This document shows, piece after piece, positions 7,416 through 47,788 of a stretch of 64,000 nt of DNA. The translations under genes were made by a program, and so were the position numbers. A model generated the notes under the pieces. The model saw only the letters and a list, made by a program, of their open reading frames with translations. It searched no databases and was not told where the DNA came from. Positions within the stretch are counted from its first letter, which is position 1; the number at the start of each line of letters is the position of its first letter. The stretch comes from Setophaga petechia. Taxonomy: Eukaryota > Chordata > Aves > Passeriformes > Parulidae. Where the stretch lies: NCBI GenBank assembly GCA_024362935.1, contig JANCRA010000116.1:494501-558500 (forward strand). The letters are read 5' to 3'.

Positions 7416-8168
<753 letters not shown>

Positions 8169-8336
8169 GTGAAGGTGTGGTTCCAGAACCGGCGGACGAA
8201 ATACAAACGGCAGAAGCTGGAGGAGGAGGGCCCCGACTCGGACCAGAAGAAGAAGGGCTCGCACCACATCAACCGATGGCGCCTGGCCACCAAGCAGTCG
8301 AGCGGAGAAGACATCGATGTCACCTCCAACGACTAA
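8169..8336 (+). CDS. EMX1: EMX1, final coding exon (homeodomain helix 3 and C-terminal tail)
   Basis: EMX1 is a nuclear homeodomain transcription factor expressed in the developing dorsal forebrain of vertebrates. The exon opens after TTGCAG at 8163-8168 in phase 0 and encodes 55 residues to TAA at 8334-8336. Residues 1-15 read [15 protein letters not shown], the DNA-recognition helix of the homeodomain with the invariant WFQNRR core. Then come [28 protein letters not shown] and the family's terminal IDVTSND. Tyr in [16 protein letters not shown] and [11 protein letters not shown] fit EMX1; as I recall, EMX2 has RRTKFKR and ends TSDD. The exon break between Q44 and V45 of the homeodomain is the usual place for EMX genes. 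Upstream exons lie outside the window. Directly before it sits a tandem array of the same acceptor (7891-8168). Confidence 0.96.
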
Positions 8337-22325: not shown

Positions 22326-23414
22326 GCACCAGTCAGGACCCCCTGTGACACCACCAGTCACAGACACCAAGCTCAAGCTCCTTCCTGAAGCCTGGGAAGA
22401 TGCTGGACACACTGGGGCTGACTGGTTGGACTGGAGCCTCCCCTGCAGGTCTCCTCCTGCCTGACTTTAATCAAGAAGGGATTGAAATCTGCTCCAGAGC
22501 CTCGGGAGCTCCAAGGGGTGCATCTGCACCAAGGAAAAATGCACAGGAAATTGGGAAAGCTGCTCAGAAATCCATCAGGAGGAACCTACTCCTCCCACCT
22601 GGACATCAGATGGAGAAGAACGGGGAGGTGGTGGTGGGTTACAGGTACCAAGACAATCCCAACCTTGCTGTGCACCAGCCTTGCTCCCTTTTTTTGTTGG
22701 AAAGTATAATTTCACTGATTTTGGGGTTCTGCTGTTCCAGCTGGCCAGAATCCTGGACCTGCTCAGCCAGCTGGCCAGGGAATTGTGACAGATGTGAGAC
22801 CACAGCTCCTGGTCAAGATTTTGGTGTCTCAGCTGCCAAGACAACCCTGACCATGGTCATGGCCATGCTGGGAACCCTCCTGTGAAGGAGCAGCTGCCTT
22901 GGAGGGTGCTCTGAGGAGCAGGCTGGGCCTGCACTGGTGGCACCTGTCCCACACAGGGCACTTTGTCCCTTCAAACCAATGGCACTGGGGTTGAATCGTG
23001 TCCATCCTCCTCTTGCCAGCTCTGTCTGTGCCAGGGCAAAGGGGGGATCCCCCTCCTGGCTTTGGGATGATGGCCCTGGGGTGTTACCAGGGAAGGGCCT
23101 TCACCAATGGATCCAGCAGAATTCCAGGAGGGACAGAAGCTCCCAGCAGCACTGAGGGACCCAGGGTGGGAAGCACCACTCCCAGACAGTGCCACAAGGT
23201 TTGGGCAAACCCCAGGATTTGGGGCTGGTGGTTGCACTCACAGCTTGGTACCCAGCATGGGGAGCTCTCCAGTGAGGCTGTGGGAGAACAGGAATTCCTT
23301 CAGTGCCCTGTGAGGATGCTGGAAGCTTTGCCATGGATCCAGGGAGATCCTCACCAGGGACACCACCAGGATGCACCTCCCAGCTCACCCAGAAACGTGG
23401 CTGGGATGAACCAC

Positions 23415-24255
23415 AGCCCATCCCAGCCCCTGGGAGCAGGTGAAACCCGAGGATGCTCCTTTCCAAGAGCACCAGAGGAAAATGGGGGAAAACCCCAAAA
23501 TCTCAGTGTCCTGACTCTCATTAATCACCTGTTCCTGGACCTGCATCTCTCAGGTAGCTCGGGCAGGATGGCAGCAATGCCAGCACCAGGGTGGAACCCA
23601 TCCCTCCCTCCCAGGGAACCACAGCTCATCCCAGCCCCTGGGAGCAGGTGAAACCCAAGGATGCTCCTTTCCCTCTGTCAGACAGCCAAAAGCACAAGAG
23701 GAAAATGGGGAAAACCCCAAAACTCAGTGCCCTGAACCTTATTGAGCACCTGTTTATGGACCAGGTAGCTTGGGCAGGATGGCAGCAATGCCAGCACCAG
23801 GGTGAAACCCATCCCTCCCTCCCAGGGAACCACAGCTCATCCCAGCCCCTGGGAGCAGGTGAAGCCTGAGGATGCTCCTTTCCAAGAGCACCAGAGGAAA
23901 ATGGGGAAAAACCCCAAAATCTCAGTCTCCTGACCCTTATTAATCACCTGTTCATGGACCAGCAGTACCCAGGTACCTCGGACAGGTTGGCAGCAATGCC
24001 AGCACCAGGGTGGAACCCATCCCTCCCTCCCAGGGAGCCACAGCCCACCCCAGCCCCTGGGAGCAGGTGAAACCCGAGGATGCTCCTTTCCCTATGGCAG
24101 ATAGAGAAGCACCAGAGGAAAACGGGTGAAAACCCCAAAAACTCAGTGCCCCGAACCTTATTGAGCACCTGCACATGGAGCAGGTAGCTCGGGCAGGATG
24201 GCAGCAATGCCAGCACCAGGGTGGAACCCATCCCTCCCTCCCAGGGAACAAAGCT
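23415..24255. repeat. 209-bp tandem repeat, 4 copies
   Basis: CAGCCCCTGGGAGCAGGTGA recurs at 23424, 23632, 23843 and 24051 (208, 211 and 208 bp apart). Each unit also has GAGGATGCTCCTTTCC, GAAAATGGGG-AAAACCCC, an ATTAATCACCTGTT or ATTGAGCACCTG part, and GGCAGCAATGCCAGCACCAGG. Confidence 0.93.
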
Positions 24256-44745: not shown

Positions 44746-44800
44746 GGAAGGCAAAGAGGCCGTGGTTTGTCACCCCCTGAGAGCCCCAGACCCCACTGAC

Positions 44801-44918
44801 CTCGGACATCTGCGGGAAGAGGCTGATGGCCAGGGGCAGGGCCAGCCCGAAGGCAGCCAGGCACACGAGGCTCTGCACCGGCAGCAGCATCCGGGGCCGG
44901 CACCTCAGCAGCCACGTC
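44801..44918 (-). CDS. SFXN5: SFXN5 (sideroflexin 5), penultimate coding exon
   Basis: 118 bp: one base completing the split Lys codon from the previous exon, then 39 codons. The protein starts [15 protein letters not shown] and continues [19 protein letters not shown], a strongly hydrophobic membrane helix, then PQMSE. Donor GTCAGT follows GAG (intron from 44800 down); acceptor is CCGTTGCAG with AG at 44919-44920, and a CTAAC branch-point word lies at 44937-44941 (- strand). [16 protein letters not shown] is diagnostic of SFXN5. The first nine residues are less like the human protein as I recall it (TALLQARPR), Trp and Cys replacing Ala; this end is also the part copied into the adjacent minisatellite (44919-45468). 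Confidence 0.95.
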
Positions 44919-45468
44919 CTGCAACGGAAAGGCTGGGTTAGAACATTCCAGGGACAGGGGACAGGGGACAGCCAGGTCCTGCAGGGGAAAGGCTGGGTTA
45001 GAACATTCTAGGGACAGGGGACAGCCAGGTCCTGAAGGGAAAGGCTGGGTTAGAATATTCCAGGGACAGGGGACAGCCAGGTCCTGAAGGGAAAGGCTCA
45101 GTTAGAACATTCTAGGGACAGCCAGAGCCAGGTCCTGAAGGGAAAGGCTCAGTTAGAGCATCCCAGGGACAGGGGACAGGCAGAGCCAGGTCCTGCAAGG
45201 GAAAGGCTCAGTTAGAACATTCTAGGGACAGGGGTCAGCCAGGTCCTGCAAGGGAAAGGCTGGGTTAGAACATTCCAGGGACAAGGGACAGCCAGGTCCT
45301 GCAAGGGAAAGGCTCAGTCAGAGCATCCCAGGGACAGGGGACAGCCAGAGCCAGGTCCTGCAAGGGAAAGGCTCAGTTAGAACATCCCAGGGACAGGCAG
45401 AGCCAGGTCCTGCAAGGGAAAGGCTCAGTTAGAACATTCCAGGGACAGGGGACAGCCAGGTCCTGAGG
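44919..45468 (-). repeat. SFXN5: Minisatellite made of the SFXN5 branch point and splice acceptor
   Basis: Ten tandem copies, 51-60 bp long, follow the exon's own first copy. The word GCCAGGTCCTG begins at 44971, 45024, 45076, 45127, 45185, 45238, 45291, 45350, 45402 and 45455; the exon version (GCCACGTCCTG) begins at 44911. On the - strand each full unit reads a TTCTAAC branch-point word (lost in some), CCTTTCCCTTGCAG or CCTTCAG, then GACCTGGCT, that is the acceptor plus the first bases of the exon. The last copy passes directly into LTR-like sequence. Confidence 0.93.
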
Positions 45469-46059
45469 CAGAGATGTGGGACTCCAGGCAGCTCTTCAAA
45501 ATGAGTTTATTGTACAGGTGTTACAGCAACCTTGGGTTGTGGGTGACAGAGCCACCCCTTAAGCTGCCAGCTCCAGCTCTAGGCAAGCCTGAATTCTTTA
45601 GTTTTGGTTACACTGCATTTTATATTTTTCTATGCTGAGCATCTCAATACATAACAACCAATCAATACCTTTATTATTACCCACAGCCTATCATGACTTC
45701 TCTCATTACCATGTTATGGTCAATACTATCCAATCATATGAGTCGGTATGGTACAGTTTAAGCTTAAGGTTATTTTTCAGTTTTGCTGCAGTGGAAAGGC
45801 AAGCCTGAACCATTTAGTTCTGGTTACATTGCATTATATATATATATATATTTTTTTTTTTTTCTGAGCATCTTAATACATAACAACCAATCAATACCTT
45901 TATTATTACCCACAACCTATCATAACTATCATTACCATGTTATGGTCTATACTATCCAATTACAGGAGTTAGTGTGTTACAGTTTAAGCTTAAAGCTGTT
46001 TTTCAGTTTTGTTACAGTGGAAAGGCAAGCTTGAACCATTTAGTTCTGGTTACATTGCA

Positions 46060-46094
<35 letters not shown>

Positions 46095-46392
46095 TTTTTG
46101 GTGAGCATCTTAATACATAGCAACCAATCAATACCCTTACTGTTTCCTACAGCCTGTCATAACTATCATTACATTTTATGGTCATCACTATCCAATCACC
46201 TGAGTTAGTGTGTTACAGTCACCATACAAATCAGTATGATAATCACCACACATGAGTTAGTAGGTTACAATCACCGTGTTATGGTCATCACTATCCAATC
46301 ACATGAGTTAGTATGGCACAGTTTAAGCTTAAAGTCGTTTTTCAGTTTTCTTGCAATGGAAAATTCTTAGATCTTTTTCCTACTTGCCACAT
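45464..46392 (-). mobile_element. LTR-derived element with internal triplication
   Basis: Antisense polyadenylation word (AATAAA, - strand, 45506-45511 in GAGTTTATTGTACAGG) and AT-rich U3-like sequence to about CCTACTTGCCACA at 46379-46391. Three tandem copies of the U3-like part begin with AGGCAAGC at 45581, 45797 and 46023. I could not find a target duplication, so the ends are approximate. Confidence 0.6.
45581..46364 (-). repeat. Tandem triplication of LTR sequence (216, 226 and 342 bp)
   Basis: Each copy holds TTTAGTTCTGGTTACATTGC, an AT/T run, TACATAACAACCAATCAATAC, TATCCAATCA and AGTTTAAGCTTAA in the same order. The third has an additional internal duplication around GAGTTAGTGTGTTACAGTCA. 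Confidence 0.88.
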
Positions 46393-46754: not shown

Positions 46755-47208
46755 CCCCTCTCCTCACTGGTGTCAGCCCCCTCAGAGAACCATGGAATGG
46801 GTTGGCTTGGAAAGAGCCTTAAACATCATCCAACTGCTCCTGCTGCCATGGCAGGGACACCTCCCCTGTGCCAGGGACACCATCCCTTGTGCCAGGGACA
46901 CCATCCCTTGTGCCAGGGTCCTCCCAGCCCTGCCAGGAGGGACAGCTCATCCTCAGCAGGTCACCATCAACCCCAGCTCCACCCACCCCAAAAGCTCCAG
47001 CACAGGTGACCCAGCACAGGTGAGCCCAGCACAGGTGAGCCCAGCACAGGTGACACCTGCAGCAGGCTGGAGCTGATGCTCTCTGAGCAGAAGGAAATCA
47101 GGTCCCTAAGAGGAACTGGGAGCTCTGGGAGCTTTGGGAAAGGCACAAAGAGCTTCATTAATGGGGTGATAAAGACACAGCATTGACAATCCCTTCATTT
47201 GTTAAAAG
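46755..47208. repeat. Segmental tandem duplication, copy 1 (454 bp)
   Basis: Begins CCCCTCTCCTCACTGGTGTC and ends CATTTGTTAAAAG. Contains an antisense CR1 tail (ACCATGGAATGGGTTGGCTT, 46790), an ACACCATCCCTTGTGCCAGGG repeat and a short CAGCACAGGTGA array. Confidence 0.9.
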
Positions 47209-47788
47209 CCCCTCTCCTCACTGGTGTCAGCCCCCTCAGAGAACCATGGAATGGGTTGGCTTGGAAAGAGCCTTAAACATCATCCAGCTGCTCCTGCTGC
47301 CATGGCAGGGACACATACCTTGTGCCAGGGACACCATCCCTTGTGCCAGGGACACCATCCCTTGTGCCAGGGTCCTCCCAGCCCTGTCCAACCCTGGGCA
47401 CTGCCAGGGGGGACAGCTCTTCCTCAGCAGGTCACCACCAACCCCAGCTCCACCCACCCCAAAAGCTCAGAGCAGGTGAGCCCAGCACAGGTGAGCCCAG
47501 CACAGGTGACCCAGCACAGGTGACCCAGCACAGGTGACCCCACCACAGGTGATCCAGCACAGATGAGCCCAGCACAGGTGACCCAGCACAGGTGACCCAG
47601 CACAGGTGAGCCCAGAACAGGTGACCCAGCACAGGTGACCCAGCACAGGTGGCACCTGCAGCAGGCTGGAGCTGATGCCCCAGGTCCTTGAGAGGCACTG
47701 GGAGCTCTGGGAGCTTCGGGAAAGCACAAAGAGCTTCATTAACGGGGTGATAAAGACACAGCATTGAAAATCCCCTAATTTGTTAAAA
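47209..47788. repeat. Segmental tandem duplication, copy 2 (580 bp)
   Basis: Same order of elements as copy 1. It is longer mainly because the 13-bp AGCACAGGTGACCC array (47465-47660) has grown from about four to about fifteen units. Confidence 0.9.

Follow-up and report, generated by a model that had tools for sequence, protein, structure and literature searches.

In NAGNAG and other tandem acceptors, alternative 3' splice sites are separated by a few bases and depend on a common branch point. The human IFI6 gene (6-16/G1P3) reportedly carries a minisatellite, said to have been described in NAR in 1995 (23:1854), in which a unit of about 12 bp supplies multiple splice donor sites. In chicken, Hron et al. 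(2026; PMC12954441) described sequence stuttering, or exon stuttering, in 236 introns of 115 genes, with 190 of these introns on dot chromosomes. Intron length varying among individuals is a feature of exon stuttering, location on dot chromosomes is an association and no requirement, and the screening cut-off of that paper (a blastn-short match of at least 20 nt and at least 42.1 bits) is a detection limit that stands outside the definition. In the literature searched, neither "exon stuttering" nor "sequence stuttering" was found as wording outside Hron et al., and no work on repeated acceptors, or on where SFXN5 or EMX1 lies in bird genomes, turned up among titles and the starts of abstracts; both genes are absent from the main text of PMC12954441, whose gene list is a supplement.

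The amplification observed at SFXN5 and EMX1 in Setophaga petechia is the kind of event published in 2026, as set out in the main text of that report (PMC12954441). Both genes lie in the window, i.e., the whole analyzed stretch of 64,000 bp. SFXN5 was located by tblastn with a human SFXN5 sequence, which placed three exons in order on the minus strand, at 61786-61701 (the preceding exon, ending GAGAA/GTGAGT, where the slash marks the exon edge), 44918-44801 (the array exon, of 118 nt, with the donor GAG/GTCAGT), and 19890-19813 (the last coding segment, with the stop). The attribution of the gene and of the array exon made in the first-pass annotation was supported, as all three exons match SFXN5 and their phases fit (AA/G); the acceptor at 44918 is in frame, since the GAGAA exon end and the G exon start complete a lysine codon. 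The donor of the array exon (44795-44803, minus strand) has a C at +3, which is unusual for a splice donor, and the Geothlypis trichas model P0003 runs past this donor, matching the next 21 residues of the window.

Upstream of this exon, at 44919..45465 on the minus strand, we observed an acceptor array of ten tandem units of 51-60 bp (45462-44919) plus one leading CAG, the last unit abutting the exon at 44918. Each unit spans an exon-start copy GACCTGGCT up to the next CAG, with lengths, in order, of 53, 52, 59, 53, 53, 58, 51, 52, 53, and 60 bp and a pairwise identity of 0.77-0.96, and the TRF call covers 44958-45465 with 9.5 copies of period 53 and a score of 705. The ten GACCTGGCT words that the first-pass annotation had placed upstream of the true GACGTGGCT at 44918 were all recovered, at 45462, 45409, 45357, 45298, 45245, 45192, 45134, 45083, 45031, and 44978, and its ten offsets, from 544 to 60 bp, are all right. 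The exon bases common to the copies are the first 9-10 only, with a mismatch at base 4. The true 3' splice site module (44919..44943, minus strand) comprises TTCTAAC at 44943-44937, the tract CCTTTCCGTTGCAG, and a branch adenine at -20, and the nearest upstream acceptor module occupies 44979..45003 (minus strand). The outermost copy (45453..45465, minus strand) is truncated to CAG and GACCTGGCTG, with its own branch point and tract absent; no CTRAC word was found in the 45 bases before copy 45462, where the flank is unrelated. Hence, the ten complete modules of branch point, tract, and AG that had been counted earlier are obtained only when the true site is included, copy 45462 being incomplete. 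The distance from branch adenine to exon-start word is 19-20 bases in every one of these modules. The sequence details proposed for the modules held in part: TTCTAAC is exact in eight of the ten (seven copies and the true site), with CTCTGAC and CTCTAAC in its place in the remaining two, and the tract CCTTTCCCTTGCAG is exact in five copies, with CCTTTCCCTTCAG in three, CCTTTCCCCTGCAG in one, and CCTTTCCGTTGCAG at the true site. Mean identity between units peaks at lag 4 (0.887, with 0.841-0.869 for the remaining lags between 1 and 7), which is too weak a signal for a higher-order repeat within the array. Directly upstream of the array, a 226 bp unit is repeated about 2.6 times (45625-46219), and a related 52 bp array extends to 46313.

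Scored with an acceptor matrix not trained on birds, nine acceptors of the array obtained 11.92-13.75 (13.48 for the nearest upstream one), the outermost 8.53, and the true site, with a G interrupting its tract, 11.67. The two remaining SFXN5 acceptors scored 10.68 and 10.3, and all thirteen rank in the top 2.2% of the 9,079 AGs on both strands. Translation in the frame of the gene revealed a premature stop before the exon from nine of the ten upstream acceptors, located within the branch word in seven of these nine and formed by a TGA right after the branch word in two. The sole upstream acceptor preserving the open reading frame is 44978, with a predicted gain of 60 nt, or 20 residues; four of the ten offsets are divisible by three, one of which is open. 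A special meaning of the single in-frame copy per array was dropped as an idea, because chance can yield it.

The word formed by AG and the first 10 SFXN5 exon bases (at most one mismatch) has six occurrences in the upstream intron, whereas 100 single-base shuffles averaged 0.03-0.04 and peaked at 1 or 2. None of the array copies was found among the best 30 exon-to-intron BLAST matches; the array is not prominent by BLAST score because the copied exon piece is so short. For the other two SFXN5 exons (61786 and 19890), no acceptor-edge copies were detected in the adjoining intron searched. A composition effect, by which any pyrimidine-rich minisatellite would mimic acceptors, was rejected for SFXN5: its array has nine sites scoring at least 10 on one strand and is alone among the 65 tandem-repeat blocks of the window in exceeding four, the next block having four. 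The EMX1 array described below is unremarkable by this count, its copies scoring below 10. Donor stuttering of the IFI6 type in SFXN5 was likewise rejected, as the donor-edge words of two exons (the last 10 exon bases plus GT, at most two mismatches) occurred 3 and 2 times, scattered, and were no commoner than in shuffles of the two introns (maxima of 3 and 4 over 100 shuffles). At 23408-24249 on the plus strand, a 211 bp unit in four copies carries acceptor-like sites scoring at least 10 at 23615, 23826, 24034, and 24245, with no identified exon.

A second array was found at EMX1, a convergent neighbor of SFXN5 with an unrelated repeat unit, whose exon was placed with EMX queries. The coding part of the last EMX1 exon (8169..8336, plus strand) starts GTGAAGGTGTGGTTCC and encodes VKVWF of the homeodomain, an ancient motif. 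Ahead of it, at 7897..8168 (plus strand), stand 11 tandem units, each 22-29 bp long and carrying the exon start and acceptor; ten of the 11 copies stand behind AG and the copy at 7949 behind AA. Over 16 exon bases, three of the 11 copies are exact, one has one mismatch, two have two, and five have four. As the copied bases are conserved homeodomain codons, copying most likely proceeded from exon to intron. The word of AG and the first 10 EMX1 exon bases (at most one mismatch) occurs 11 times in the intron versus a mean of 0.02 and a maximum of 1 in 100 shuffles. The ten copies that were scored reached 6.08-9.1, the true acceptor being the strongest at 10.47, and ten of the 11 upstream starts run into a stop, with the start at 8118 remaining open and giving a 17-residue insert. 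Together, two of the four exon 5' edges identified in the window end an acceptor array. No match in the window passes the published screen; the best, at EMX1, has 16 nt and 32.2 bits, lying below the highest value in 50 shuffled controls (34.2 bits; median of the maxima, 24.3).

Local tandem arrays cover 24,337 of the 64,000 window bases (38%) in 65 blocks, matching the tandem-repeat-rich introns that characterize exon stuttering, and the GC content of the window is 53.4%. Among these repeats, CAGGTGAGC-like word arrays at 46997-47053 and 47473-47651 (plus strand) are 5' splice site look-alikes antisense to SFXN5. An identical 21 bp repeat array with the same weak protein match is present at 46769-46918 and 47223-47372, 454 bp apart, and probably reflects a local duplication, since both the array and the protein match are shared. 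Among four bird models examined, the longest contig recorded is 72.5 Mb for SFXN5 of Geothlypis and 90,861,225 bp for SFXN5 of chicken, the latter presumably being chromosome 4, and 76.9 Mb for EMX1 of Catharus and 73.8 Mb for EMX1 of Passerculus. If the placement agrees with these four models, the locus would perhaps reside on a macrochromosome, despite its share of tandem repeats and its GC content.

To place the arrays among other birds, protein models clustered at 90% identity were searched, which for SFXN5 gave 212 matches among 311 candidates, the best 120 being inspected. The best match was a partial model of the bulbul Brachypodius atriceps (P0001; 82% over 34 aa, E 6e-16), which joins a relative of the translated unit to the exon, with 11 of the 15 intron-derived residues identical to the window. 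The bulbul model shows a homologous intron end, and the central claim of the first-pass annotation, that the exon's own acceptor had been amplified, is supported in outline. Because the bulbul SFXN5 model reads through this homologous intron end, the unit is probably local sequence rather than a dispersed insertion, and by its translation it looks like an ordinary intron end of SFXN5. No further exon-start copy was seen in P0001, which reaches some ten residues past the unit; since it reads so little beyond the unit, more upstream copies are possible in the bulbul. Zonotrichia albicollis (P0002) and Geothlypis trichas (P0003) share the array-exon peptide, as does Nesospiza acunhae (P0007) with one change; together with the Geothlypis residues past the donor, this makes a nine-primaried oscine the probable source of the window. 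These three models join EK/TWLLRC, i.e., the proximal acceptor, and say little on acceptor competition. The 20-residue insert was found in none of the best 120 of the 212 SFXN5 matches, among which clustering at 90% could mask isoforms. For EMX1, an insert-bearing query returned one match, which, used as a query in turn, returned four, two of them bird EMX1. The Passerculus sandwichensis model P0124 ("EMX1-like isoform 2-T2") aligns to the array at 7918-8016 (E 4e-9), and the Catharus ustulatus model P0121 (isoform X1) reads VKVWFQNR and then 22 more residues before the exon peptide. These annotation records, which are not RNA, indicate that other passerines also have EMX1 exon-edge copies and that upstream copies serve as the exon start in gene models. 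The same searches returned a predicted homeotic protein proboscipedia of Diaphorina citri (P0123) that contains a tandem copy from the same homeodomain position, twice; either the protein is modelled wrongly or an exon edge has been duplicated in a comparable way in this insect.

Taken together, we consider it very likely that the SFXN5 array is an instance of exon stuttering, i.e., a local tandem expansion whose last intact copy is the exon and which is most likely neutral. That an unrelated dispersed repeat was inserted beside the SFXN5 exon and resembles an acceptor by accident is scarcely credible. Dispersed copies, named in the first-pass annotation as the observation that would speak against amplification, were sought throughout the 64 kb with two joined units by BLASTN, and all matches outside the array were short and weak, the best having E 0.059 over 19 bases; the homologous bulbul intron end and the recurrence of the pattern at EMX1 with an unrelated unit also argue against an insertion. 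More deserving of attention, and still improbable, is the reading in which a CAGGACNTGG-like word happened to lie one unit upstream and seeded slippage, the exon edge itself never being copied. A pre-existing similar word could have acted in this way because the SFXN5 exon part amounts to about 10 bases with a mismatch, and the bulbul upstream peptide SRGVLPSPVPW is, by eye, loosely like the unit at that place. Against such chance microhomology, however, the word keeps one register with the acceptor across all ten SFXN5 units, three EMX1 copies are exact over 16 exon bases, and the thrush copy encodes VKVWFQNR.

A functional alternative holds that the copies compete with the true site as a splicing rheostat, in which products prone to NMD cut SFXN5 mRNA and copy number tunes expression. 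This appears unlikely to us, even though nine array acceptors outscore the true site, nine of the ten upstream acceptors give a stop, no other block matches the array in strong one-strand sites, and the annotation starts EMX1 isoforms at upstream copies in sparrow and thrush. The matrix behind these scores was not trained on birds, and at EMX1 it ranks the true acceptor above every scored copy. Moreover, the best 120 SFXN5 matches are without the 20-residue insert, of whose later part the bulbul carries a relative, although stop-bearing products are scarcely expected among proteins in any case. More doubtful still is the extension of this idea in which acceptor arrays are variable-number splicing elements in songbirds, every unit being a complete 3' splice site and fast changes in copy number setting the productive share of SFXN5 and EMX1 mRNA and producing heritable differences between birds in expression or isoforms. 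Recursive splicing was also considered as a common explanation and rejected because the SFXN5 copies read AG/GACCTGG, which is not ratchet-like, whereas AG/GTGAAG of EMX1 would be somewhat so.

Under exon stuttering, a tandem duplication across the intron/exon edge would have copied the last ~43 intron bases together with the first ~10 SFXN5 exon bases, and the array would then have expanded into the intron, with selection presumably preserving the exon as the final intact copy. The exon-proximal acceptor would probably yield the normal functional SFXN5 mRNA, and the upstream acceptors, nine of which lead to a stop and one to 20 additional residues, probably stay silent for the most part or contribute minor products. 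The stress that the first-pass annotation had laid on a functional module being amplified as such exceeds the evidence, since any duplication of ~53 bp over the exon 5' edge includes branch point, tract, and AG.

With these observations, exon stuttering, described in chicken and there mainly on dot chromosomes, would also reach passerines and perhaps a macrochromosome. New are the occurrence in two adjacent genes, the exon pieces below the published screen, and the annotation-level support for such acceptors entering gene models. The published screen may undercount, since two of four exon 5' edges within 64 kb carry short copies that escape it. In addition, the series of ten complete and nearly identical 3' splice sites offers a natural experiment in spliceosomal choice between equal acceptors, in which the use of every copy can be read in RNA because each has a predicted stop or insert.

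Compared with the described systems, the window arrays fall within the strict definition of exon stuttering as worded in the main text of its report (PMC12954441), and their source is the exon border, with copies that begin at exon base 1 and span AG except for the single EMX1 copy with AA. As far as that text describes them, the chicken cases share with the window direct tandem copies of exon edge and splice site that spread into the adjoining intron amid local tandem arrays, an exon kept intact, and possible alternative transcripts. They differ in that the present host is a passerine and not chicken, that the location is perhaps chromosome 4 rather than a dot chromosome, and that the copied exon piece is about 10 nt in SFXN5 and up to 16 nt in EMX1, versus 20-187 nt in the published cases. 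As in NAGNAG sites, several acceptors would compete at one exon; in contrast to them, the SFXN5 copies stand 51-60 bp apart, each except the outermost with its own branch point. The IFI6 minisatellite reportedly likewise repeats a splice site at an exon edge, but there the donor is repeated, in a single human gene, whereas the units of the window carry acceptors; to our knowledge, it is the nearest single-gene precedent, of which the present arrays form the mirror image.
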